Below, piece after piece: positions 15 through 24,284 of a DNA stretch of 35,255 bases. The translations under genes and the position numbers were made by a program. The stretch comes from Pseudomonadota bacterium (GTDB lineage: Bacteria > Pseudomonadota > Alphaproteobacteria > JAAXGF01), in the NCBI GenBank assembly GCA_022572945.1, contig JACZUY010000002.1, positions 1 through 35,255 of the forward strand, read 5' to 3'. Under the pieces are notes generated by a model that ran no database searches, was not told the origin of the DNA, and worked only from the letters and a program-made list of their open reading frames with translations. How positions within the stretch are numbered: the first letter of the stretch is position 1; each line of letters starts with the position of its first letter.

Positions 15-1658
15 GTGACCCGCGTGGTCGTTTGCGTGCTCGCGTTGGACGGCGGCGAGGCGGCCGAACGCGCGGTCGGCTCGGCGCGCCGCTTCGGTCT
101 CGACGTCGCGGTCGGCGTTGCGAGCGAAGAGGGCGGTGCGTGTCCGGGCGGGGTCAACGTCCATCGGATCGAGTGGCGCGACGACTTCGCCGACGCGCGC
201 AACCAGCTCGCGGACCAAGTGACGGCGGACTGGCTGCTGTGGATAAACGACGACGAGACGCTCGCGGAATACGCGCCGGGCGGGATCGACCGGCTCGACG
301 AGCCGTTCGCGGCGGTGTGGCTGGCAGACCGCAAGGACTATACGCCGCGCCCGGCGATCCGCCTGCAACGGCGGCGCGCGGGCGTGCGCTGGGCCGGCGC
401 GGTCAACGAGGCGCTCGTCGCAGAGGAGGGCGGGCCGCTGGTCATCCTCGACGAGCTTCAACTCAAGGCATTCGGCCACGAGGACCCCGATATCGCCCGC
501 CGGAGGCTCGCGCGCAACCAACGCATCGTCGGCCTTCAGCGCGCCGCGGGCGCCGACGACTTCGGCCTCGCTCTCGAAGAGGCGCGGTTGACGGATGCCG
601 CCGAACCCGCGGCGACCGCGCTCATGGCGTGGCTCCGCGCCTTCAAGCATCCCGAGGCCAAGCCTCCCTGTCCAGGGGCGCCCGACCCGCGCGTCGAGAT
701 CGCGGAGCGGCTCTGCGCCTACGACTTTACCAAGCCGGCGCGCCGCCTCCTCGACGAGAACCCGGGAATCGTTCCACTCGCCTACGCGCTGCTCGCGGCC
801 GAGGTGCGCGCCGCCAGGCGCGTGAGGTTATCGCGCGGCGCCGAGCTTGCGGACCGGCTCGCGAGCGGGCGGATCGACCGGCGCTACAGTTTTCCGCGCC
901 GGCTGGAAGGCGCTAACGCCGACGCGCTATCCCAGTTGCTCAGGGCCGGATTCGTGGCCGAGTATGATTTGGGCGAGCGGGAGCGTAGCTGGGCGAATCC
1001 GTTGCGCGTCGGGCGCTATGTCATCGGTCCGGCGCACACGCCCGCCCCGCGCCGAGGCCGCTTCCAGCTCGGGATCGAGGTGGGGACGGTCTTCGGGACC
1101 GGCGCGCACTCGACGACGTACTGCTGCCTTCTCGCGCTCGACCGGCTCGCCCGCCAGCGGCAATTCCGGCGCATCCTCGATGTTGGCACCGGTTCGGGGG
1201 TGCTCGCGATTGCGGCGGCGAAGACCTGGCCGGCGCGCGTCACGGCCATCGACGTCAACCCCGTGGCGGTCGAGCAGGCGCGCCACAACGTTCGCGCCAA
1301 CGACCTGGGTCACCGCGTGCGCGTCCTTTGCGCCCATGGATTGGAGGCCGCCCGGCTGCCGCGCACCATGGGCTTCGACCTCGCGTTCGCCAACCTGAAC
1401 AAATCCATGAACCTTCGCTATGCCGACGCACTCGCCCGTTGCGCGGCGCCCGGCGGCGTCGTGGTCGTGTCGGGACTGCTCGGTCGAGAGGGACGCCACG
1501 TCGCCTATGCGTACGGCACGCGGGGGTTTCGGCTTCGCTCGGTGCTCAGGTGGCGCGGATGGTTGGCGCTGGTGATGGAGGCGCCGCGCCTAGGGAGGCA
1601 GCCTGCGAGTCGGCGAGCGAACCGACGTCTCGCTCGATCTCGCCGGGCGCGGCGCTGA
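15..1658 (+). CDS. Glycosyltransferase-like / PrmA-type methyltransferase fusion protein
   Basis: This 547-residue protein appears to be two enzymes in one chain. Residues about 1-90 resemble a family 2 glycosyltransferase: the stretch ADARNQL followed by ADWLLWINDDE (residues 60-81) matches the usual ARN...gDWvLwlDaDE pattern. A linker of unclear fold follows. Residues about 355-520 are a SAM-dependent methyltransferase of the ribosomal protein L11 methyltransferase (PrmA) type: FGTGAHSTT (about 359-368) is the PrmA substrate-side motif, LDVGTGSGVLAIAA (about 387-400) is SAM motif I, and ANLNKS (about 458) sits where PrmA has its motif IV. It is unlikely to be housekeeping PrmA because of the N-terminal domain and the location next to peptide, kinase and PqqD-like genes. 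The last 20 residues are very basic. The GTG start lies 15 bases from the window edge, so an upstream start cannot be excluded. It converges on the peptide gene. Confidence 0.72.
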   Translation: MTRVVVCVLALDGGEAAERAVGSARRFGLDVAVGVASEEGGACPGGVNVHRIEWRDDFADARNQLADQVTADWLLWINDDETLAEYAPGGIDRLDEPFAAVWLADRKDYTPRPAIRLQRRRAGVRWAGAVNEALVAEEGGPLVILDELQLKAFGHEDPDIARRRLARNQRIVGLQRAAGADDFGLALEEARLTDAAEPAATALMAWLRAFKHPEAKPPCPGAPDPRVEIAERLCAYDFTKPARRLLDENPGIVPLAYALLAAEVRAARRVRLSRGAELADRLASGRIDRRYSFPRRLEGANADALSQLLRAGFVAEYDLGERERSWANPLRVGRYVIGPAHTPAPRRGRFQLGIEVGTVFGTGAHSTTYCCLLALDRLARQRQFRRILDVGTGSGVLAIAAAKTWPARVTAIDVNPVAVEQARHNVRANDLGHRVRVLCAHGLEAARLPRTMGFDLAFANLNKSMNLRYADALARCAAPGGVVVVSGLLGREGRHVAYAYGTRGFRLRSVLRWRGWLALVMEAPRLGRQPASRRANRRLARSRRARR

Positions 1659-1689
1659 AGCGCGGCGCCCCGGCCGAACCCGTAAGTCG

Positions 1690-1703
1690 GCCGATCAGTC
1701 GGC
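1690..1703. terminator. Small stem-loop between convergent genes
   Basis: GCCGA-TCAG-TCGGC forms a 5-bp stem with a tetraloop between the fusion protein (stop at 1658) and the oppositely oriented peptide gene (stop at 1747). There is no T-tract on either strand, so it is at best a weak bidirectional terminator. Confidence 0.25.
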
Positions 1704-1746
1704 GGTATACCCTGCCGTCCCTTGTCCTATCCGGGAACAACCGCTA

Positions 1747-1920
1747 CTAGATGCACTTCGGGTCACTGGGATGCTGATCGCAGAACGCGGCATTGGCGTT
1801 GCGCGGGTACATCAAAATCGCCGTCGGTACGATGTATCCGCTCACGGCGACCACTGCCAGGCGCTTCAACAACTCTCGGCGCCGCTGTTTCGACATTGGG
1901 CTATTCTTTGCCATAACCAT
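1747..1920 (-). CDS. Small secreted peptide 1, candidate RiPP precursor (C-x3-PSxP-x-C-x end)
   Basis: This gene encodes about 57 residues. A positively charged N-terminus (SKQRRRELLKR) is followed by a hydrophobic stretch (LAVVAVSGYIVPTAILM) and an A-rich cleavage-like site (NANAA), so it looks like a secreted peptide with a Tat-like or Sec-like leader. The C-terminal end FCDQHPSDPKCI carries two Cys eight residues apart around P-S-x-P. The same end (C-x3-P-S-x-P-x-C-x-stop) closes the peptide encoded at 3678-3863, although the rest of the two sequences differs. Starts at GTG 1935, ATG 1920, ATG 1914 and ATG 1896 are all in frame. I chose ATG 1920 because a strong promoter predicts transcription starting about there, which excludes 1935. 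It is adjacent to an HprK-like kinase, a PqqD-like protein and methyltransferases. That it is a modified precursor is inference. Confidence 0.55.
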   Translation of the reverse strand: MVMAKNSPMSKQRRRELLKRLAVVAVSGYIVPTAILMYPRNANAAFCDQHPSDPKCI

Positions 1921-1926
1921 GAGCTG

Positions 1927-1954
1927 ATTATACACTGCGTCCTCGACGTTGCAA
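1927..1954 (-). promoter_or_regulatory. Sigma70-type promoter of peptide 1
   Basis: On the minus strand TTGCAA (1954-1949) and a perfect TATAAT (1932-1927) are separated by 16 bp. A consensus -10 box is rare by chance in DNA this GC-rich. The same -35 hexamer and spacing recur at the gntR promoter (18127-18154). The predicted transcript starts at or within a few bases of ATG 1920. Just upstream, at 1970-1984, ATGCTT-CTA-AAGCAT forms a perfect 6-bp hairpin. Confidence 0.55.
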
Positions 1955-1988
1955 AGTGGAATGCGGACATGCTTCTAAAGCATTTTCA

Positions 1989-2110
1989 GCTTACCTTTAC
2001 CCAGGTCAAAGGCAAGCAGCGTTCAATCGCCACGCAGGCTCTCGTCGCATACGCGACGGCCCGCGGTCGCGGGCTGGCGAATTCCGAACGATTCCACTCG
2101 TTCTGAATTC
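1989..2110 (-). repeat. Mosaic hairpin repeat, type A copy 1
   Basis: This 122-bp element read on the minus strand has an outer hairpin (2079-2110: GAATTC and GAACGA arms around TTCCAC), a GCCCGC-GACC-GCGGGC hairpin, CGTCGC-GTAT-GCGACG, GCC-TGCGT-GGC, the motif ATTGAACGC, and a second outer hairpin (1989-2017). It is homologous to 33841-33985 and, more distantly, to 9253-9425 and the 125-bp copies. The element begins three bases after the stop of the HprK-like gene and ends about 35 bp before the peptide 1 promoter, so it fills the gap between them. Confidence 0.75.
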
Positions 2111-2113
2111 GCT

Positions 2114-2947
2114 CTAGAGCCGGGCGAGCAGGGAGAGCGCTTGGTCGATCTCGTCGGGCGCGACGTTGAGGCGAAGCAACCGCCCGCCATTCGCGTGGGC
2201 GTTCAGGAAGCGCAGCACATCCATGGGCGTGGCGGCGCCGAGCTCGGTGTAAGGCAGCGCTTCCCCGAGAACCGCGGAAACCGGAATTTCGTCGAGGCGT
2301 GTGGGCCCGGTTTCGACGCGCCGCAGCAGCGCAACCGCGCGGATCGGCACGGCGGCTTGGCAATCGACGATGCCGGGTAGGCCACGGGACAAGATCCAGC
2401 GCCGCTCGCCGCCTAATTCCGCGATGAAAGCGGCGTCGTCCGGCACGCCCGCGCGCCAGGCGGCGTGCACGTGACCATCTTCGAGACGGAGCTGGAGACA
2501 CCTTGGAAGCGAGCGCACGGCGTTGTCGTCGAACAGCAACGCAATCCGGTCGTCCCCAAGGACGGCGTAACCCTTCCGCCAGGCGGCGAAGGTGAGCCGG
2601 CTCTTGCCCTGGCGCAGCCCGGCCAGGTATACGACCGCGCCGCCATCGTTGACGAACGCGCCGGCGTGGACCAGGGTCCGCCGCGTACGGGCCTGAAACT
2701 CGTAACCAAGAACCAGGAAAAGCAGGAACGCGGCGTCCTCGTCGCGCTCCGCGGCGCGGGGGCCGTGTGGAGCGTCGATTTCCCAGCCCGATTCGGTCCG
2801 GCGGACGGTGATGACCGGCGGTTCGTCGCCCGCGCCGGAAACCGGCCTCAGCTCGATCGCGAGAAACCGCTCGATCCAGTCCCTGAAAGCCACGTCCTCG
2901 AGTAGGAGAGGGACGGCGCAGTCGCCCCAAATCGCGGTGAAGAGCAC
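2114..2947 (-). CDS. HprK-related serine kinase-like protein
   Basis: This 277-residue protein is related to the HPr kinase/phosphorylase fold. From a GTG start at 2947, LVHAG (92-96) precedes a degenerate Walker A, AGLRQGKS (109-116), where the first Gly of GxxxxGKS is Ala. LGDDRIALL (130-138) matches the LGDD phosphate/metal-binding segment of the family. HprK relatives next to PqqD-like proteins and nucleotidyltransferases are known from lasso-peptide clusters, where a homologue phosphorylates the precursor, and from the so-called HPr-rel-A system; both are recalled, not searched. The start lies seven bases after the stop of the PqqD-like gene, so the two form one operon. A longer reading to 3022 would overlap the PqqD-like gene and is unlikely. 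The plausible substrate is one or both neighbouring small peptides. Confidence 0.7.
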   Translation of the reverse strand: MLFTAIWGDCAVPLLLEDVAFRDWIERFLAIELRPVSGAGDEPPVITVRRTESGWEIDAPHGPRAAERDEDAAFLLFLVLGYEFQARTRRTLVHAGAFVNDGGAVVYLAGLRQGKSRLTFAAWRKGYAVLGDDRIALLFDDNAVRSLPRCLQLRLEDGHVHAAWRAGVPDDAAFIAELGGERRWILSRGLPGIVDCQAAVPIRAVALLRRVETGPTRLDEIPVSAVLGEALPYTELGAATPMDVLRFLNAHANGGRLLRLNVAPDEIDQALSLLARL

Positions 2948-2954
2948 GGCCCGC

Positions 2955-3236
2955 CTAGCTCTCGGCCACGTCCGCCGTGACCAGGCCGGCCTCGACCAGC
3001 GTATCGAGCACGCCCTGGACATCGCGCCGGATGACGGCGGGATCGTTGTCGGGAAAGGCGCGCTGAAAGAGACCGCCGATCTCCTCGACCGTGGCGCCGC
3101 TATCCAGCGCCTCCCAGACCGTGCGGCCGGTGGCGTTGAGCGTCACCACGGCCTGGCTTTCGGCCTCCATGAGAACGAGCTCGTCCTCGAATTCCTCGTG
3201 GTCGAACGATTCAATGCGACGATAGAGCGTGCTCAT
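2955..3236 (-). CDS. PqqD-like RRE protein (peptide chaperone)
   Basis: This 93-residue protein has the PqqD winged-helix pattern: a strand-rich N-terminus ending in VVTLNATGRTVWEALDSGATVEEI (about 30-53) followed by two helices with a conserved Asp-rich turn (FPDNDP) and VLDTLVEAGLV. PqqD-family proteins bind the leader peptide of ribosomally made precursors and hand it to the modifying enzyme (RiPP recognition element). Here it lies directly upstream of the HprK-like kinase, with a 7-base gap, and downstream of a small secreted peptide gene on the same strand. That arrangement suggests it presents the peptides to the kinase. I see no strong ribosome site before ATG 3236; no other start fits better. 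Confidence 0.72.
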   Translation of the reverse strand: MSTLYRRIESFDHEEFEDELVLMEAESQAVVTLNATGRTVWEALDSGATVEEIGGLFQRAFPDNDPAVIRRDVQGVLDTLVEAGLVTADVAES

Positions 3237-3677
3237 GAGGCGCTCATGGGGTTATCGGATACTCGCTTGGGGCGCGTGCGCCGCGCCGACGCGACCGTAT
3301 GTCGGCGCTTCGACAGCCGCCGGACGGATCATCAGTCCCATATACGGAAAGGACCCGAAGCGCAAATCCCGTGTGGAGTATCCTTACCCGGTCCGTCGCG
3401 GGGTCGGGGCTCGCCGGCCGGGACCGCCTTCGGGGCCGCGTCTCCGGCGGCCATCGTGCGCTTCCGCTCGATCGTCTTCGAACCAGCCAATACTCACGCC
3501 GGGCGAGCGGTCGGGAAAAGACATCGGCGCGCTCCGATTCGGACGCGCCACATCAAAGCGGCCACGGATGAAGACCCGCACCGGCTTCGAATATGTCGTG
3601 GTGGCCCAGCTTAGATAGCGAGCGCTAAACGGCGCGCCGGTACCCCGTGTACCGGCCCGCTCGCACGCAGAGTCGGC
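3237..3677. other. Gene-poor gap between peptide 2 and the PqqD-like gene
   Basis: No confident gene. A minus-strand reading at 3384-3581 (65 residues, Arg/Pro-rich C-terminal half, GTG start, no clear ribosome site) is open but matches nothing I recognise. It could be a small unrecognised member of the cluster or chance in GC-rich DNA. Near 3636-3656 there is a strong hairpin, listed separately. No clear promoter for the PqqD-like gene is visible here. Confidence 0.4.
3636..3656 (-). terminator. Hairpin just after peptide 2 (partial terminator or RNA processing site)
   Basis: GCCGGTAC and GTACCGGC form a perfect 8-bp stem around a 5-base loop, starting 21 bp after the peptide 2 stop on the minus strand. 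It is followed only by a short GTTTAG, so it would be a leaky terminator. Such hairpins after precursor genes commonly make the precursor transcript more abundant than that of the enzymes downstream; here that is inference. Confidence 0.45.
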
Positions 3678-3863
3678 TTATGGGCACCAGGGAACGCTAG
3701 GGGCGAAAACGCACCAGTCCCACGTAATTCTGCTGGGCCCTGGAAACTCAGTCGGGCGCGCCGCCAGCGCCATTGAGATCAAGCCAAAATAGTTCACCGC
3801 CGCGAGCGCCATCACCGCCGCGACGGGGTGCTTCGAGAATCCGTGAATTGCAAACTTGCCCAT
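3678..3863 (-). CDS. Small secreted peptide 2, candidate RiPP precursor (C-x3-PSxP-x-C-x end)
   Basis: This gene encodes 61 residues. ATG 3863 has a ribosome site GAGG eight bases upstream. The N-terminal 35 residues form a signal-peptide-like segment (HPVAAVMALAAVNYFGLISMALAA), and the predicted mature part is about 26 residues rich in Pro and Trp. It ends WDWCVFAPSVPWCP: two Cys separated by eight residues, with P-S-x-P in the same register as the peptide at 1747-1920. The conserved Ser and the Cys pair are the obvious candidates for modification (phosphorylation by the HprK-like protein, disulfide or other crosslink). It has its own promoter and lies upstream of the PqqD-like and kinase genes on the same strand. 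The function is not known. Confidence 0.62.
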   Translation of the reverse strand: MGKFAIHGFSKHPVAAVMALAAVNYFGLISMALAARPTEFPGPSRITWDWCVFAPSVPWCP

Positions 3864-3919
3864 GGGTGCTACCTCGTTTTTGACAAACGTTGTTAAAAGC
3901 ACCCCCAGCCTTGAGGCGT

Positions 3920-3948
3920 TGTATAGCGCATTTTTCAGCGTTTGTCCA
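3920..3948 (-). promoter_or_regulatory. Sigma70-type promoter of peptide 2
   Basis: On the minus strand TGGACA (3948-3943, 5 of 6 to consensus) and TATACA (3925-3920, 4 of 6) are separated by 17 bp. The leader between it and ATG 3863 contains a near-palindrome around AACGTT (about 3880-3896) that could be an operator. The motif GACAAACG also occurs in inverted orientation about 50 bp away, inside the promoter. Confidence 0.45.
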
Positions 3949-4001
3949 GCCCCTCATTTTACACGATCACATGCGCACAATACGAAATGAGAAATGCTAA
4001 C

Positions 4002-4220
4002 ATGGCGTTAACGCGCGTCGTTCGAGTGAGTTCCAAACCGGGCGTCCGCACCGGCCGGCGCGATGCGGACGAACGCGCCGCGGTGGGCAGGCGTTCCAAC
4101 CGGCACTGGCGGGCTGGCGGTTCATGCCTGGGGGCGGAGACGGTGGATTGCTTCGCGCCGGGCGGCGACTTAATCTTGGCGGCGCGGCCCCTTGGCATCG
4201 TCAACGAAAGCGCCCCGTGA
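4002..4220 (+). CDS. Small hypothetical protein preceding the nucleotidyltransferase
   Basis: An open frame of 72 codons starts at ATG 4002 with GAGAAA about eight bases upstream. Its third codon positions are GC-rich as in neighbouring real genes. Its TGA overlaps the GTG start of the nucleotidyltransferase (4217), an arrangement typical of translational coupling. The sequence (Arg-rich N-terminus, one CFAPGG segment) is not recognised and has no signal peptide. It may be a small cluster component or merely the leader region of the next gene. Confidence 0.28.
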   Translation: MALTRVVRVSSKPGVRTGRRDADERAAVGRRSNRHWRAGGSCLGAETVDCFAPGGDLILAARPLGIVNESAP

Positions 4221-5323
4221 ACCAGACCAAGCCGGAGCCCGCCGCCGACGCGGCGCCGGCGACACTCGCCAGCCTGTTTCCCGCGGCGTTCGTCGAGCGG
4301 CTGATCGAGCCCCTGTTCGCGGAATCCAGGCGCGCGGAGTTCGCGACGCAGCTTCTCGGTGCGCCGCTGGCGTTCGCCTGCGTCCGGCTTTGCCGCAAGC
4401 CGGCGGTCGACAGGGACGCGCTGCACGCAAGCGCGGCGCACGAGAGCATCCGCTTGCGCAAGGTGCGCGAAAGGGTCATCCGGCTCGTCGGGGAGCTGGC
4501 GGGGGAGGGCGTGCGCGGCGTCGCGATCAAGGGGCTGGCGACGGCGCTCAGCGTCTATCCGCACCCGGCGTACCGCGCGCTTCCCGACGTCGACTTTCTC
4601 TTTCACGAGCGCGAGCTGCCGCTGCTTGCGCGGTGTCTGGCCGACCGAGGCTTTCGCACCGGCGTCGCGGCCGGGACGACGCGCGTGTGGGGGGTTCTGG
4701 CGGAAGCCAGCTTCGCGCCCATCTTTCCGCCCGACTACGGTTTCTTCCTCGACGTTCATCGCGCCGTCGACGAGCGGCCGGCGAGCCAGGGTCTCGACGC
4801 CGAGCGGGTGTTCGCGCGCGCCGGGGAGATCGAAACCGAATGGGGCCCTTGCCTGGTGCCGGCGCGCGAGCACAGCTTCGCCATCGCGGCGCTGAACACC
4901 TATCGTGACTTCTACCGACCCGATGCGCTCAAGGGCGTGTTCGACGCCTGCCTCATCCTCGGCCGCTTCGGCGCGGCGTTGGACTGGGGGGAGGTCGAGG
5001 CGGTGGCCCAAAAAGGCCGTTTCGTCAATCGCATGGTCTTCTTCCGCGAGCTCCTCGCCGCGCTCGGCGCGGGGCTGGCGCCGGTTTTCGCGGACCGGCG
5101 GCTTGCGCCGTGGTTACGTCCGCGGCTCGCGGCGATCATCCGCAATTACGCAACGCTCAAGCGGTTGGTGACGAGCGACGCGGACAAGGTCGTTCTCGAG
5201 ATAGCGCTGCTCGATTCACCGTTCGCGACGCTGCGCCTGCACTGGCGGCGGCTCCGCAGCCTCGTCGCACCGCCGATGCACTACCTTCCGGGCGTCCCGG
5301 TCGTCCGGGATACGCCGCCATGA
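4217..5323 (+). CDS. Nucleotidyltransferase-like protein (PF14907 type)
   Basis: This 368-residue protein resembles the uncharacterised nucleotidyltransferase family PF14907: VAIKGLATAL (102-111) and YRALPDVDFLF (119-129) give the KG...DxD arrangement of the nucleotidyltransferase fold, with Asp124 and Asp126 as likely metal ligands. Members occur in lasso-peptide and other PqqD/HprK-containing clusters and next to exopolysaccharide genes (established association, recalled). I chose GTG 4217 because upstream codons read as low-complexity Gly/Arg; the ribosome site (GAAAG) is weak, consistent with coupling to the small upstream frame. It overlaps the next gene by ATGA. It is likely to modify the same substrate as the kinase or to make an activated donor. 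Confidence 0.68.
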   Translation: MNQTKPEPAADAAPATLASLFPAAFVERLIEPLFAESRRAEFATQLLGAPLAFACVRLCRKPAVDRDALHASAAHESIRLRKVRERVIRLVGELAGEGVRGVAIKGLATALSVYPHPAYRALPDVDFLFHERELPLLARCLADRGFRTGVAAGTTRVWGVLAEASFAPIFPPDYGFFLDVHRAVDERPASQGLDAERVFARAGEIETEWGPCLVPAREHSFAIAALNTYRDFYRPDALKGVFDACLILGRFGAALDWGEVEAVAQKGRFVNRMVFFRELLAALGAGLAPVFADRRLAPWLRPRLAAIIRNYATLKRLVTSDADKVVLEIALLDSPFATLRLHWRRLRSLVAPPMHYLPGVPVVRDTPP

Positions 5324-6075
5324 CCGCCGCGGGCTGGGCGCCGCCCTCGAGCCTCGGCGAGCGGCTGAAAGACGCCCTGGCGCCGCCGACGCTTTACTAC
5401 CGGATGCGCGCGCGCCGCGAGCTCAGGCGGGGCGAGGCCGAGCTCGGATTGCTGCCGAGCCTCCTCGACCCGAAGCGCAACAGCATCGACGTGGGCGCCA
5501 ACAAGGGCGTCTACACCTACTGGATGCAACGCCATTCGCGCCACGTCTACGCCTACGAGCCCAACCCCAAGATCTTCCGGATACTCCGCGCCGGCGCGCG
5601 CGGCAACGTGACCGTTTCCTCCGCGGCGCTGTCAAACGCGAACGGCAAGGCGGCGCTCAGGATTCCGAAGACGGCTTCGGGCTACTCCAACCAGGGCGCA
5701 AGCCTCGATTACGACAAGGTCGGCCCGTCGTACGGCGAGGTCGAGGTCGACGTCCGCCGCCTCGACGACGAGGGCCTCGCCGACATCGGCTTCATCAAGA
5801 TCGACGTCGAGGGGCACGAGTTCGCGGTGCTCGAAGGCGGCCGGGCGCTCATCGCGCGCGACCGCCCGACGCTCCTGATCGAGATCGAGGAGGCGCACAA
5901 CAGGCGGCCCATCGAAGACTCGCTCGCGCGCGTGACGGCGCTGGGATACGCGGGCTTCGCGCTGTTCGACGGCGTGCTCCGAAGCCTCGACTTCTTCGAC
6001 CCCGAGGCGCACCACCGCGCCGCGCCGGACCCCGCCGACTACATCTACAACTTCCTGTTCCTGCCGAAGAAGTAG
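5320..6075 (+). CDS. FkbM-family methyltransferase
   Basis: This 251-residue protein has the FkbM layout: SAM motif I IDVGANKGVYT (56-66), AYEPNP (78-83), and the hallmark FIKIDVEGHEFAVLEGG (158-174) followed by LLIEIEE. FkbM enzymes are usually O-methyltransferases acting on sugars or secondary metabolites; some act on peptides. The start overlaps the stop of the nucleotidyltransferase as ATGA, so the two are translationally coupled. Together with the PrmA-type fusion upstream this gives the cluster two methyltransferases. Confidence 0.82.
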   Translation: MTAAGWAPPSSLGERLKDALAPPTLYYRMRARRELRRGEAELGLLPSLLDPKRNSIDVGANKGVYTYWMQRHSRHVYAYEPNPKIFRILRAGARGNVTVSSAALSNANGKAALRIPKTASGYSNQGASLDYDKVGPSYGEVEVDVRRLDDEGLADIGFIKIDVEGHEFAVLEGGRALIARDRPTLLIEIEEAHNRRPIEDSLARVTALGYAGFALFDGVLRSLDFFDPEAHHRAAPDPADYIYNFLFLPKK

Positions 6076-6211
6076 GTGGGCCGGCGGCCGGTCGCGACGA
6101 GAAGATTCAGCGGGAGGCTTGTATCCGGAAGCGGGATGGCCCTGCCGGATCGGGACGAAGATGCCGGATCGGCCCGCCGAAACACGTTCCCATCGGAACG
6201 ATCATGGCTAA

Positions 6212-6240
6212 TTGCCCGGAGCGGCGAGTTCGAGCATAAT
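6212..6240 (+). promoter_or_regulatory. Likely promoter of the DUF1264-like gene
   Basis: TTGCCC (6212-6217) and CATAAT (6235-6240, 5 of 6) are separated by 17 bp, about 140 bp before the gene. A CGTTCC-CATC-GGAACG hairpin lies just upstream (6185-6200). The rest of the 6076-6378 gap holds nothing I recognise. Confidence 0.4.
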
Positions 6241-6378
6241 CGAACCGACATCCGGGGCGGTCGGGGGAATGTCGGTCGAAATCCGACCTGTCCGGGAAGG
6301 CTCCTGCCGGGCCGCACGCGCATGGCGTGGATTGGGGCCTCGCAGTACCCCTGCCCAAAAAAACATAAGGAGCGAGGT

Positions 6379-6879
6379 ATGAACATCCGTTTGCTCATTA
6401 CCGGACTGACAGTGCTATTCGCCGCGGCGCTGCCCCTGCGGCACGCCGAAGCTCATCCCCCACCCGGATTCCTTCACGTCGACGCCACGGCGGGCTGCGT
6501 TTTCGGAAACGCGCCACATCACTGGTTCAAGTTATCGTCAGAGGGTCTCTTCTTCGGCCTCGTGTTCGAGACCGACGATGTCGGCGCCCAACCCATCGCG
6601 ATCGAGCTGGTCGTGACCGAGGACGGCTATGCCAAGCTGCCGGACAACGTCAAGAAGTTCTACCACAATCATGCCGACGAGATACGGATGGGCGAGGTCA
6701 CCGTGCCGGACCTTAGCGGAGAAGAGGCAAAGGGTACGCTCGACTTCCTCGCCACCACCTACGGCAGGATGATCATCATTTCCGAGATCGCCGATCTCGC
6801 GCCGATCGAGCGGACCCACATTCCCGCCAATCCCCAGGAGTTCATGGGGACGTTCTGGAGCTACTCTCCGGCGCAATGA
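6379..6879 (+). CDS. Secreted DUF1264-like protein
   Basis: This 166-residue protein starts at ATG 6379, with AAGGAG six bases upstream. A clear Sec signal (LLITGLTVLFAAALPLRHAEA, cleavage about residue 26) precedes a domain resembling DUF1264 (PF06884): IAIELVVTEDGYAKLPDNVKKFYHNH, then VPDLSGEEA and TTYGRMIIISE, matching the family's IEyvv...LP...WH.H and TYGK segments. Function in bacteria is unknown. The single Cys in the mature part (AGCVFGN) and the HNH stretch are visible. It follows the modification genes but has its own promoter and a hairpin after it, so membership of that cluster is uncertain. Confidence 0.6.
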   Translation: MNIRLLITGLTVLFAAALPLRHAEAHPPPGFLHVDATAGCVFGNAPHHWFKLSSEGLFFGLVFETDDVGAQPIAIELVVTEDGYAKLPDNVKKFYHNHADEIRMGEVTVPDLSGEEAKGTLDFLATTYGRMIIISEIADLAPIERTHIPANPQEFMGTFWSYSPAQ

Positions 6880-20761: not shown

Positions 20762-21907
20762 ATGAGCACCGGTTCCGTGGAGGTCGTGTACCGCGGCATC
20801 TTTCAAAAGACGCTGGCCAAGAACATCTGCCGCGGGATCGTATTCGCGGCCAGGAAAGAAGGAAAGATCGGCACCGCCTTCGGACGCTACGGTGACTCGC
20901 CCGAACGCAACGGCATTCCGGCGAAGCAGTTCGCCGTGGTTTCCGATACCGAAGAGGAGTTGGAGGAGCACCTTGCGAAGTACGAACCGGTCAACAACGA
21001 CGTGACCATTGCCGCCGACGACGCCCTTTGCAAGGGCATCGAGTCCTGGGCCTGGTACGGTCTGCAGCCGATCAACAAGCTGCTCGGAGACGGCGGCACG
21101 CTTTTGGTCACCTCGATCCAGTCGCCCAACAAGCTGATCAAGACCATCCACCGCAAGGGGACTCCGTACAATCTCGCCATCGTCAAGGCCCAGGCCAGTT
21201 TCTCGGGTCTGTGGGCGTACAAGGACGACCACACCGATGTGCGCCTCCTCGGCGCCCTCGCCAAGGTCGCCCCGCACATCGTCAGCCTGGACGCCATGCT
21301 CGAGGCGATCCGCGACCAGTGGAACGATGACCTCAAGGTCGCTGCCGCGAAGCGCGCTTATGAAGCGACCGAGTCGACCCCCGTTGGCGTCGATCAGGGC
21401 AACGACGAGGTGCCGTTCTCGTTCGATCTGCCCGGCTGGACGAAGATGGAGGAGGGCCTGGTGATTCGCGGCATGGACGCGAAGCCACAGGACGTTCCCG
21501 GCCGCGACGGCGGCTACGTCCCGACACGCAACGAGGTGTTCAAGAAGTTCTCGACCCGCACCATGCGGCCGGTCATCAACTTCGACACCTGCACCAAGTG
21601 CACGCTGTGTTGGCTGAATTGCCCCGACACCTGCTTCGACATCACCCCCGACGGCTTCTACGACGCCAATATGGAAGCCTGCTGCGGCTGTGGCGTGTGC
21701 GAGGCGGTCTGCCCGGTGAAAGACTGCGTCACCATGGTCAACGAGGAAGCCTTCGAGGACAACGACAGCCAGTGGGAGATGTGGACCAAGGACAAGGAAG
21801 GCTACCTGGCCTGGCTGACCAAAAATATTACCGAACGGCCCGCCCGCTCGCACGGGTATCACCACGTAGGCCAATACGCCGAGGAGATAGCCGATGGCAC
21901 CGCCTGA
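20762..21907 (+). CDS. Oxalate oxidoreductase, fused gamma-delta subunit
   Basis: This 381-residue protein has two parts. Residues 1-180 form the gamma domain of 2-oxoacid:ferredoxin oxidoreductases (VEVVYRGIFQKTLAKNICRGIVFAA..., then LLVTSIQSPNKL). Residues about 265-330 form the delta ferredoxin domain with two [4Fe-4S] sites, C277-x2-C280-x2-C283-x3-C287-P and C307-x2-C310-x2-C313-x3-C317-P. Gamma and delta fused in this order is the layout of Moorella oxalate oxidoreductase, which oxidises oxalate to two CO2 and reduces ferredoxin. A strong AAGGAGG lies eight bases before ATG 20762. The stop overlaps the alpha gene by 14 bases. Confidence 0.83.
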   Translation: MSTGSVEVVYRGIFQKTLAKNICRGIVFAARKEGKIGTAFGRYGDSPERNGIPAKQFAVVSDTEEELEEHLAKYEPVNNDVTIAADDALCKGIESWAWYGLQPINKLLGDGGTLLVTSIQSPNKLIKTIHRKGTPYNLAIVKAQASFSGLWAYKDDHTDVRLLGALAKVAPHIVSLDAMLEAIRDQWNDDLKVAAAKRAYEATESTPVGVDQGNDEVPFSFDLPGWTKMEEGLVIRGMDAKPQDVPGRDGGYVPTRNEVFKKFSTRTMRPVINFDTCTKCTLCWLNCPDTCFDITPDGFYDANMEACCGCGVCEAVCPVKDCVTMVNEEAFEDNDSQWEMWTKDKEGYLAWLTKNITERPARSHGYHHVGQYAEEIADGTA

Positions 21908-23144
21908 CACAGCCACTGCGGCCAAGACGATCGAGCTCCCCGGCGGATCGGGCGACGAGAGAGAGGAGCTGATCAGCGGCAGCGAGGCGATCGCGCACGC
22001 CTGCCGGCTCGCCGACGTCGACGTGATCACGGCGTACCCGATCCGGCCGTACGACACCGTCATGCAATACGTATCGCAGATGATCTCCAACGGAGATTTC
22101 GACTGCGAATTCATCGTTGCCGAGAGCGAGCATTCGCAGTTCGAGATCGTCAAGCACGCGTCGGCGGTGGGCGCCCGCGTGTTCTGCGGGTCCAGCGGCG
22201 TCGGCTGGTTCTACGCCTTCGAGGCGCTGGCGGTCACCGCCGGGCTGCGTATACCGATGGTCGCCATGGTCGGCAACAGGGCGCTCGACGATCCTGGCGC
22301 CTTCGGGGTCGAACACAACGATGCGCTCGCGGTGCGAGACCTCGGCTGGATGCTCGCCTGGGTGGCGACCGCGCAGGAGGCGCTGGACACGGCGCTGATT
22401 GCGTACCGTGTGGCCGAGGATCCACGCATCTTCCTTCCCTGCGCGATCAGCTGCGACGGGGCCTTCCTCACCCACAGCCAGGCGATCGTCAAGGTTCCCA
22501 GCAAGGAGATGGTGGACAGCTTCCTGCCGCCCTATGACCGGGGGGAAAAGCAGCTGCATCCGGACAACCCGATCACCATCGCGCCGCAGGTGAACGAGGA
22601 CTGGCTGATGGAGATGCGGCAGCAGAACGACAAGGCGATGCGCCGTGCCCGTGAGGTCATCATCGAGGCATACGACGATTTCGAAGCCAAGTTCGGCCGC
22701 GGCGGCGAGCCCTTCATCGAGCGCTACATGATGGACGACGCCGAGATCGTGCTGGTCGGCATGGGGACCTTGGCGTTGCCGGTGAAAGTCGCCGTCCGCA
22801 AGATGAGAGGGCAGGGTAAAAAGGTCGGCTTCTTGCGGGTCAGGTGGTTCCGCCCGTTCCCCACCATCGAGCTGCAGGACGCGCTGTCCGGGGTGCAGGC
22901 CGTGGGCGTGATCGATCGCGATTACGGTTTCGGCTCCCCGTTCCACAGCGGCGTGCTGGCCAACGAGCTGCGCTCGGCGCTCTACCCGGTGGAGAACCCG
23001 CCCAAGGTCGTTTCGTTCATCGCCGGCCTCGGCGGCCGGGAGGTGAGCATTGACAACGTCGTCGAGATCGCCGGCATGACGTATGACGCCGCAAACGACA
23101 GCCTCGATGATCAGGACACCCATTGGATCGGAGTAAGGGAGTAA
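21894..23144 (+). CDS. Oxalate oxidoreductase, alpha subunit
   Basis: This 416-residue protein has the pyruvate:ferredoxin oxidoreductase domain I/II layout (SGSEAIAHACRLADVDVITAYPIRP, then the domain II part DAEIVLVGMGTLA...). Pyruvate enzymes have YPITP; here it is YPIRP (Arg51), and VGNRALDDPGAFG carries Arg129, Asp132 and Phe137. The oxalate enzyme of Moorella uses Arg31, Arg109, Asp112 and Phe117 as I recall; the spacing here is identical with an offset of 20. This favours a dianionic two-carbon substrate over pyruvate. The start is preceded by GAGGAG and lies inside the end of the gamma-delta gene. Confidence 0.84.
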   Translation: MAPPDTATAAKTIELPGGSGDEREELISGSEAIAHACRLADVDVITAYPIRPYDTVMQYVSQMISNGDFDCEFIVAESEHSQFEIVKHASAVGARVFCGSSGVGWFYAFEALAVTAGLRIPMVAMVGNRALDDPGAFGVEHNDALAVRDLGWMLAWVATAQEALDTALIAYRVAEDPRIFLPCAISCDGAFLTHSQAIVKVPSKEMVDSFLPPYDRGEKQLHPDNPITIAPQVNEDWLMEMRQQNDKAMRRAREVIIEAYDDFEAKFGRGGEPFIERYMMDDAEIVLVGMGTLALPVKVAVRKMRGQGKKVGFLRVRWFRPFPTIELQDALSGVQAVGVIDRDYGFGSPFHSGVLANELRSALYPVENPPKVVSFIAGLGGREVSIDNVVEIAGMTYDAANDSLDDQDTHWIGVRE

Positions 23145-23149
23145 CAATC

Positions 23150-24178
23150 ATGCTAGATGAAAACACAGACAGGAATCAGGAATCCTTCGAGGACTACCTT
23201 TCGACTCAGGTCCTCGACCCTTGGAAGGGTCCCAAGAAAGTCCCGGCGGAGGAATACTACACCTCGGGTCACCGCACCTGTCAGGGGTGTGAGTCGGCCC
23301 AACTCATGAAGCTCATGGCCAAGGCGGGCGGCCCGCGCTCGATCATCCTCGGCAGCACGGGCTGCATGTACGTGGCCAACACCACCTACTACTCGACCCC
23401 GTGGGCGGTGCCCTGGATGCACACCCAGCTCGGATCCGCGGGCTCCTCCGCCGTCGGCACCGCCGCCGGTCTGAGGGCGATGATGCGCAAGGGCAAGATG
23501 GCGAAGGAGCCGATCAACGTCATCGCCGTTTGCGGCGATGGCGGAGGCGCCGACATGGGGCTCTCGGCGATCTCGGCGGCGCTCCAGCACACCCAGTACA
23601 ACCTGCTGATCTTGATGTACGACAACGAGTCGTACGCCAACACCGATATCCAGGTGTCGGGCTCGTCTCCCTGGGGTGCCAACTCCACCTTCAGCCCTCC
23701 GGGCAGCGCGCGGCGCATCATGAACCGGCGCTGGAAAAAGAACACCGCGGCGATGCTGGCTGCGGGCCATCCCGATTGCAAGTACGTCGCCACCGTCAAC
23801 ACCGCGTACCCTGTCGACACCATGAACATGGTGCGCAAGGCGTTGACCATCGGCGGTCCGACGTTCATCCACTCGCTCGATCCTTGCCCCAAGGGCTGGG
23901 ACTACGATCCGATGTACTCCCACGAGCTCGGCGAGCTTGCGGTGGAGACCGGCATCTGGCCCCTCTACGAGGTCGAAGAGGGCAAGCTCAAGATGTGCGG
24001 CAAGTCCAGGCGGATCGTGAGCGGACAGTTCAAGCGTAAGCCGGTTCGCGAGTACCTGACGAGGCAGGGTCGCTTCGCCCACTTTATCGACGAGGATTTC
24101 GATTACTTCCAGGCGAAGATCGATGATATGTGGGAGAAGTGGCTCATCCCGGGGGTGATTCCATTCGCCGAGGCGTAG
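23150..24178 (+). CDS. Oxalate oxidoreductase, beta (ThDP-binding) subunit
   Basis: This 342-residue protein is the ThDP- and cluster-binding subunit: GDGGGADMGLSAISAALQH (129-147) and YDNESYANTDIQVSG (157-171) give the GDG...N motif for ThDP/Mg. Cys44, Cys47, Cys72 and Cys246 are placed as the ligands of the proximal [4Fe-4S] cluster in this family. ATG 23150 has GGGAG eight bases upstream and starts five bases after the alpha stop. Hairpins follow at 24202 and 24285. The three genes in order gamma-delta, alpha, beta make a complete enzyme. Confidence 0.86.
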   Translation: MLDENTDRNQESFEDYLSTQVLDPWKGPKKVPAEEYYTSGHRTCQGCESAQLMKLMAKAGGPRSIILGSTGCMYVANTTYYSTPWAVPWMHTQLGSAGSSAVGTAAGLRAMMRKGKMAKEPINVIAVCGDGGGADMGLSAISAALQHTQYNLLILMYDNESYANTDIQVSGSSPWGANSTFSPPGSARRIMNRRWKKNTAAMLAAGHPDCKYVATVNTAYPVDTMNMVRKALTIGGPTFIHSLDPCPKGWDYDPMYSHELGELAVETGIWPLYEVEEGKLKMCGKSRRIVSGQFKRKPVREYLTRQGRFAHFIDEDFDYFQAKIDDMWEKWLIPGVIPFAEA

Positions 24179-24201
24179 CCGTTTCGATCCGTCGGGTGGT
24201 C

Positions 24202-24220
24202 GGCGCCACGTAGGCGCCTT
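24202..24220 (+). terminator. Hairpin after the oxidoreductase operon
   Basis: GGCGCC-ACGTA-GGCGCC is followed by TT, 23 bp after the beta-subunit stop. It is a weak terminator, reinforced by the stronger hairpin at 24285-24317. Confidence 0.35.
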
Positions 24221-24284
24221 CCGTCGACGTCGCATTTATGCGGTCGATGGGCCGTCGACCGTGTGAAGTGCGCTCGGACATGTT

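Follow-up and report, generated by a model that had tools for sequence, protein, structure and literature searches.

What is modified by an HprK-like kinase that is encoded beside a PqqD-type protein and two short, putatively secreted peptides? The question is raised by a 35,255-nucleotide stretch from an alphaproteobacterium (Pseudomonadota bacterium, assembly GCA_022572945.1, contig JACZUY010000002.1), referred to here as the window. It makes up the whole of contig G000:C184 in a 2.29 Mb genome that is 81% complete, and the order to which this genome belongs is represented by only three genomes in the collection. In transcription order, its minus strand carries peptide 2 (3678-3863), a PqqD gene (2955-3236), the kinase gene (2114-2947) and peptide 1 (1747-1896). 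The original prediction, made from the window alone, described two dissimilar peptides with an identical C-x3-P-S-x-P-x-C-x end and proposed an undescribed system resembling those of ribosomally synthesized and post-translationally modified peptides (RiPPs). Both open reading frames (ORFs) and their ends are confirmed, and the PqqD, HprK-like kinase, PF14907 and FkbM genes lie between and around the peptides as it described. Judged from sequence comparison, a RiPP-type pathway is probably encoded here, with a short and linear phosphopeptide as its secreted product.

The leader of peptide 1 and its family

A search of 385 genomes of the class with a single kinase returns five relatives. Upstream of two distant kinases, one of them from a second copy of the system in the window genome, lies a short ORF with an RR...Y..P segment. 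That copy (L019, 7494-10245 on G000:C3) is separate from the window; in it, a tandem pair of leader precursors, whose cores are rich in Gly and Ser, immediately precedes an HprK-PqqD fusion gene. A profile of seven kinases extends the set to about 70 non-housekeeping loci, 60 of which were retrieved. In these kinase loci, a regular expression for the leader gives 22 matches, 21 of them convincing, less than 2 kb from the kinase, with none further away; the 22nd (L042) is false, and L034 was added by hand. The precursors, for which no Pfam or NCBIfam entry was found, usually lie less than 60 bp upstream of the kinase on the same strand.

The Tyr and Pro residues are invariant in 22 leaders, as is the RR pair. 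The spacing from RR to Y is 14-15 in 43 of 44 leaders, position Y+5 is L, I, V or A in all 44, and A-x-A follows at Y+10 to Y+17 in 42. The cores differ completely, ranging from PSPCGKGKG...PSGPSRPS, SRGSRG, RPTEPTEP and KPTKPTK to short Cys peptides. Ser or Thr is present in every one of 45 cores, within the first nine residues in 43, and the recurrent elements are P-[ST] and P-[ST]..C: 36 cores contain P[ST] against a shuffled mean of 22, and 21 contain P[ST].{0,4}C against 5, counts that are inflated by related rows. The original prediction had read the leaders as dissimilar and the shared end as selected; across the 44-45 relatives the arrangement is the reverse, with a conserved leader and a variable core. 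Through its RR pair, hydrophobic stretch and AxA, the leader looks like a twin-arginine translocation (Tat) signal. We infer that this one segment may act both as export signal and, through Y-x-x-P-x-[LIVA], as docking site for a RiPP recognition element (RRE).

Peptide 1 (1747-1896, minus strand; MSKQRRRELLKRLAVVAVSGYIVPTAILMYPRNANAAFCDQHPSDPKCI), with alternative starts at 1914 and further upstream, is a predicted precursor with such a Tat-like leader, located 218 bp past the kinase stop on the same strand. Its leader, RR..L..L.......YIVPTA..NANA, gives the pattern RR-x2-L-x2-L-x7-Y-x2-P-x-[LIVA] followed by AxA. By leader alignment and the motif definition of PMC13381572, YIVPTA (1819-1836, minus strand) would be the YxxPx[LVIFA] RRE-binding motif. 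The position of A-x-A in the leaders and the enrichment of P[ST]..C place the predicted core, AFCDQHPSDPKCI, at 1750-1788 (minus strand). When the 346 ORFs of the window are scored with a 44-row leader profile built without peptide 1, peptide 1 ranks first (E=2.9e-5); the window ORF at 24144-24281, also considered as a leader ORF, is judged spurious. A phmmer comparison aligns peptide 1 with L101, the peptide of genome G164, at E=1e-5; the kinase of G164 belongs to the window kinase's own clade (100/99), and L101 and peptide 1 support each other. Within the limits of such comparisons, peptide 1 is a divergent member of the leader family. Codon usage separates neither peptide 1 nor peptide 2 from spurious ORFs.

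The surroundings of the precursors vary. The gene hldE (ADP-heptose synthesis), often accompanied by gmhA and mmcB, is found close to precursors of several families (L018, L025-L027, L029, L085, L086, L090, L093, L094, L096-L099), which may reflect a heptose donor or synteny only. In one kinase subclade (L040, L042, L045, L051, L054), the kinase-PqqD pair follows a gene for a RegA/ActR-like response regulator, and the precursors of these genomes are found at a distance of tens of kb (about 35-40 kb), in tandem in some. In L087-L089, two tandem precursors (FPSxC...GGGGGC) directly follow the gene for a giant RTX-repeat protein.

The kinase, the RRE and their association with the leader

The kinase gene (2114-2947, minus strand) has a GTG start, and four residues of its product, H94, K115, D132 and D133, are invariant in the alignments; this His-Lys-Asp-Asp set has been shown to be essential in lasso-peptide kinases. 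The kinase matches HPr(Ser) kinase (3tqf) by sequence in the PDB, and its AlphaFold2 (AF2) model, with a predicted local distance difference test (pLDDT) score of 82, has the PEPCK/HprK fold. The NCBIfam HPr-rel-A entries (TIGR04352 for the kinase, TIGR04353 for the PqqD family) describe the same kinase-PqqD pairing; membership is rejected, as the window proteins reach 18.6 of 200 and 16 of 35 bits, far under the curated cut-offs.

The PqqD protein (2955-3236, minus strand; PF05402, E=3e-16) is a discrete RRE by type. The best PDB matches of its family profile are TbiB1 (1.5e-11), LppB (9x8z, 1e-6) and TfuB1 (1e-5), all RREs that were crystallised with leader peptides. Residues N34 and D72 of the window protein, the latter nearly invariant, are equivalent to N33 and D70 of LppB, which contact the leader YxxP and whose mutation weakens leader binding (PMC13381572). 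In lasso systems and in systems for Linear Polyphosphorylated Peptides (LPPs), discrete RREs (B1/PqqD) bind their leaders through YxxPx[LVIFA] (PMC13381572), and the window protein fits the prediction of a YxxP-binding RRE of the PqqD/B1 type.

The association of leader and kinase holds across genomes. A 39-column leader profile (E<=1e-3) matches 37 of 385 alphaproteobacterial genomes, and 32 of these 37 carry the kinase (called at E<1e-20), with three kinase genomes lacking a leader (Fisher p=5e-38 to 8e-40). Among the 350 kinase-negative genomes, the profile gives 5 matches at most; G088, which counts among the exceptions, does carry a kinase that scores lower but falls within the leader-associated clade. 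In a dozen genomes, the profile also picks up leaders that are remote from the kinase. The family is present in about one in ten of the sampled alphaproteobacterial genomes. A fresh draw of 399 genomes from the phylum adds five leader genomes, four of them from another class, and in all five the leader ORF overlaps an HprK-PqqD fusion gene or stops no more than about 55 bp upstream of it. The precursors outside the class (L122-L125) have long repeats of the form SRPxYSRP and, for the most part, end in a conserved C-terminal tail (IELRISRLLP.W); the gene for the kinase-PqqD fusion follows.

Peptide 2, the shared tail and candidate tailoring enzymes

Peptide 2 (3678-3863, minus strand; ...ITWDWCVFAPSVPWCP) may be a second precursor; its N-terminus is hydrophobic and Sec-like, and its tail reads CVFAPSVPWCP. 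The exact tail, C.{3}PS.P.C.$, is found in 2 of 10,560 ORFs from 85 loci, both in the window, and in none of 5,454 background small ORFs. The likeness was noticed post hoc, yet a chance origin of two such ORFs within 2.1 kb is unlikely. A looser form, C.{3}P..P.C.$, matches four times in the 85 loci, the window pair included; of the two from outside the window, one is the L038 precursor (...YCAANPNHPKCA), which lies beside a kinase and PqqD and, as peptide 1 does, 3' of the pair. Across the relatives, the exact tail is confined to the two window peptides, with L038 as an approximate match; a scan of kinase loci for C-x-P-x-P-x-C gave almost nothing, and the tail is rejected as the family signature, the conserved part being the leader.

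It is about an even matter whether peptide 2 is also a substrate, or even the main one, with both precursors bearing the C-x3-PS-x-P-x-C-x signature, and the scales tip slightly against it. Such a role would add to a phosphopeptide pathway for peptide 1 and would not exclude it. Besides a tail absent from the background ORFs, peptide 2 has a good ribosome-binding-site-like element (GAGG) and lies upstream of the PqqD-kinase pair, the usual place of a precursor in most relatives, and tandem precursors are known from other genomes of the analysis. Set against this, the search of 372 genomes returned no homologue, only weak matches of which several contain internal stops; the RR/YxxP leader is absent, and the coding signal is no higher than that of spurious ORFs. 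Of the two peptides, peptide 1 alone is a member of the leader family.

Divergently from peptide 2, the plus strand carries a gene for a PF14907 nucleotidyltransferase-like protein (4217-5323; PF14907, E=2e-19) and then one for a FkbM-family methyltransferase (5320-6075; TIGR01444, E=5e-25; PF05050, E=2e-21), while a fused gene (15-1658, plus strand) occupies the low-coordinate end of the window. The nucleotidyltransferase and two methyltransferases named at the outset are all present, with the amendment that the 15-1658 product, a candidate tailoring enzyme, is not a methyltransferase alone: its first 310 or so residues form a SunS/GmaR-like glycosyltransferase domain, which is fused to a PrmA-like methyltransferase (PF06325, E=4e-39). 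The profile of this N-terminal domain matches GmaR (3.6e-9) and SunS (2e-4) in the PDB, a distant GT-A domain likeness to the flagellin enzyme GmaR and the sublancin S-glycosyltransferase SunS, and the domain is 40% identical (E=9e-54) to one that G197 carries as a fusion with PqqD, adjacent to its kinase. It is thus joined to a methyltransferase in the window and to an RRE in relatives.

Homologues of the PF14907 protein adjoin the kinase/PqqD or a precursor in 11 other loci, in addition to L017. In pseudomycoidin biosynthesis, PsmN, annotated as a nucleotidyltransferase, is needed for the hexose on phospho-Ser (PMC9266682), and by analogy we infer that the PF14907 protein may play a PsmN/LppN-type role; its AF2 model (pLDDT 41) was not used. 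The FkbM enzyme is a candidate tailoring enzyme, its place in the system being suggested by the 4-bp overlap with the nucleotidyltransferase gene, the only ground for including it. A TPR-methyltransferase adjoins the precursor in ten other loci. Additions of sugar and methyl groups to the peptide are plausible from this gene content. Elsewhere in the window, at 20762-24178, three genes in a row that resemble, as judged by eye, subunits of 2-oxoacid:ferredoxin oxidoreductase follow a gene for a thiamine-pyrophosphate enzyme-like protein.

A proposed pathway, its rivals and known systems

Computation establishes the leader family, its tie to the kinase and RRE, the conserved residues of both proteins, the domain fusions and the lack of cyclase and B2 protease; the steps of modification and export are predicted from these. 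In the proposed pathway, peptide 1 would be made with a leader that combines an RR/hydrophobic/AxA export signal with PqqD docking through Y-x-x-P-x-[LIVA]. In the cytoplasm, the RRE would present the peptide to the HprK-like kinase, which would phosphorylate a core Ser, probably that of HPSDPKC. The PF14907 protein may then attach a sugar or a nucleotide to this phosphate, with possible further additions of sugar or methyl groups by the glycosyltransferase-methyltransferase (15-1658) and the FkbM enzyme. The modified peptide would be exported by Tat (or Sec) and cut after AxA by housekeeping signal peptidase I, which would take over the task that lasso-peptide and LPP systems give to a dedicated leader protease. 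The two Cys of the peptide could subsequently pair or undergo modification.

This logic has its closest known counterpart in the LPPs of the Bacillota lpp clusters, whose polyphosphorylation is proven (Popov et al. 2026, PMC13381572). The description of the window as RiPP-like, without lasso cyclase or B2 protease and with precursors that lack a Pfam or NCBIfam entry, is well supported; 'undescribed' is too strong, given that the LPP study appeared in May 2026. Both systems have a discrete PqqD-type RRE, an HprK-like kinase and an NTP transferase, the putative counterpart here being, by domain type, the PF14907 protein, and both lack a macrolactam cyclase. LPP precursors (35-200 aa) have a conserved YxxP leader and a variable core and often lie near polysaccharide genes, as is the case here. 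In contrast, the SipW-like signal peptidase LppS has no equivalent among the Pfam matches of the genes at 15-6879 or, judged by sequence, the recurrent neighbours, and no MsbA-like exporter is found among the genes at 15-6879. The LPP leader, YxxPxVLxHQxIxFETxxS, has only YxxPx[LIVA] in common with the RR-x(12-13)-YxxPx[LIVA]-AxA leader of this family, and the window system adds the SunS/GmaR-like glycosyltransferase and the methyltransferases. As the peptidase, the exporter and most of the leader motif are missing, and as LPPs are described as restricted to Bacillota and the window system belongs to Pseudomonadota, the latter is not classed as an LPP despite its LPP-like working. No description of proteobacterial members was found in the open-access literature, to which the search was confined, subscription journals and preprints lying outside its scope.

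The best-surviving rival, still improbable, holds that the leader ORFs are ordinary Tat (or Sec) envelope substrates, that the kinase, PqqD and nucleotidyltransferase modify another target such as a polysaccharide carrier, and that their proximity is envelope synteny. RRxxL with AxA is indeed a standard export signal, precursors lie near the lipopolysaccharide-core genes hldE and gmhA (14 and 9 loci), and the closest kinases have no nearby precursor and stand beside HD-GYP and phosphatase genes. In these loci (L014, L015, L017), the kinase is placed between a pair of HD-GYP sensor and calcineurin-like phosphatase genes and a cytochrome c-like gene, with no leader peptide. The profile, however, ignores the ordinary Tat substrates of the 350 kinase-negative genomes, and the co-location with the kinase holds in another class. 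The invariant Y-x-x-P-x-[LIVA] is needless for export, yet it is the RRE docking motif, and PqqD domains are peptide-binding RREs.

A degenerate or orphan lasso system, in which the kinase, RRE and nucleotidyltransferase would be the remnant of a paeninodin-like cluster whose B2 and cyclase genes were lost or lie elsewhere, is markedly less probable. The phosphorylated lasso peptides (paeninodin, pseudomycoidin, SyanK type) do have a B1-like RRE, an HprK-family kinase with His-Lys-Asp-Asp, a nucleotidyltransferase (PsmN) and a YxxP/WxxP leader in common with the window, and the window genome is incomplete. The window differs in lacking the B2 protease (PF13471), the asparagine-synthetase cyclase and a C-terminal Ser, and in a leader that ends in a signal peptidase site. 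The absence of asparagine synthetase and B2 protease from the locus, already part of the original prediction, holds: PF13471 is not found in the window's own, 81% complete genome, nor in 34 of 40 leader genomes, and there is no Asn_synthase on the contig. Where PF13471 does occur in leader genomes, B2 is encoded at loci apart, and several of these have a kinase of their own; matches to PF00733/Asn_synthase in the window genome lie on other contigs, and in the genomes checked this domain never adjoins the kinase or the leader. The leader-associated kinases branch apart from lasso-cluster kinases in the tree, and cores of Ser/Pro/Gly repeats or short Cys peptides are unlike lasso cores. A lasso origin is rejected on the absence of B2 and cyclase and on the kinase tree. 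One genome has both types: L076 (G317:C3) is of lasso type, with more than one gene each for B2, cyclase and HprK-like kinase, and lies apart from the leader-type locus of the same genome. Chance in a GC-rich genome, where small ORFs abound, codon scores are weak and the motif was noticed after the fact, is the least probable account, since peptide 1 belongs to a leader family of tens of genomes, on which ground its chance origin, though not that of peptide 2, is rejected, and the exact tail occurs in 0 of 5,454 background ORFs.

Several points weigh against the phosphopeptide pathway itself. The phosphorylation site is a guess, and some cores are dominated by Gly or Arg. Once L101 is also left out of the profile, the score of peptide 1 drops to 7.3 bits, and the divergence of peptide 1 weakens its placement in the family. 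The Tat model TIGR01409 scores 13.3, just below its cut-off of 16.7, and Sec is open to positively charged RR signals as well. The window kinase and those of four loci in which no precursor adjoins form a separate clade (100/99), and a scan of contigs for close kinase homologues finds only the same four loci and one fragment. Three genomes of this clade (G083, G366, G197) give no match to a peptide-1-type leader profile; the closest kinase loci thus lack such peptides, while many more distant ones have them, a pattern that counts in part against the original prediction. The association of leader and kinase was measured in the genomes that supplied the profile, its independent parts being the specificity and the remote and phylum matches. 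In the LPP study, LppN had no detectable activity (PMC13381572).

Whether the phosphopeptide pathway extends to a RiPP class across the Pseudomonadota is evenly balanced. In such a class, a single N-terminal segment would be both Tat signal and RRE leader, an HprK-like kinase with glycosyl-, nucleotidyl- and methyltransferases would decorate Ser/Pro/Cys cores in the cytoplasm, and the linear peptide would reach the envelope without a dedicated protease or transporter. If this is true, kinase-tailored linear RiPPs would be a widespread proteobacterial trait, found in 37 of 385 alphaproteobacterial genomes and in another class, and would extend beyond Bacillota. Orphan HprK-PqqD-PF14907 gene sets would be assigned a substrate, and a leader that is at once export signal and RRE ligand would make a dedicated leader protease and transporter needless. 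In conclusion, the pattern RR-x(12-13)-YxxPx[LIVA]-AxA would offer a simple handle for genome mining, and the question of what the HprK-like kinase modifies becomes testable.

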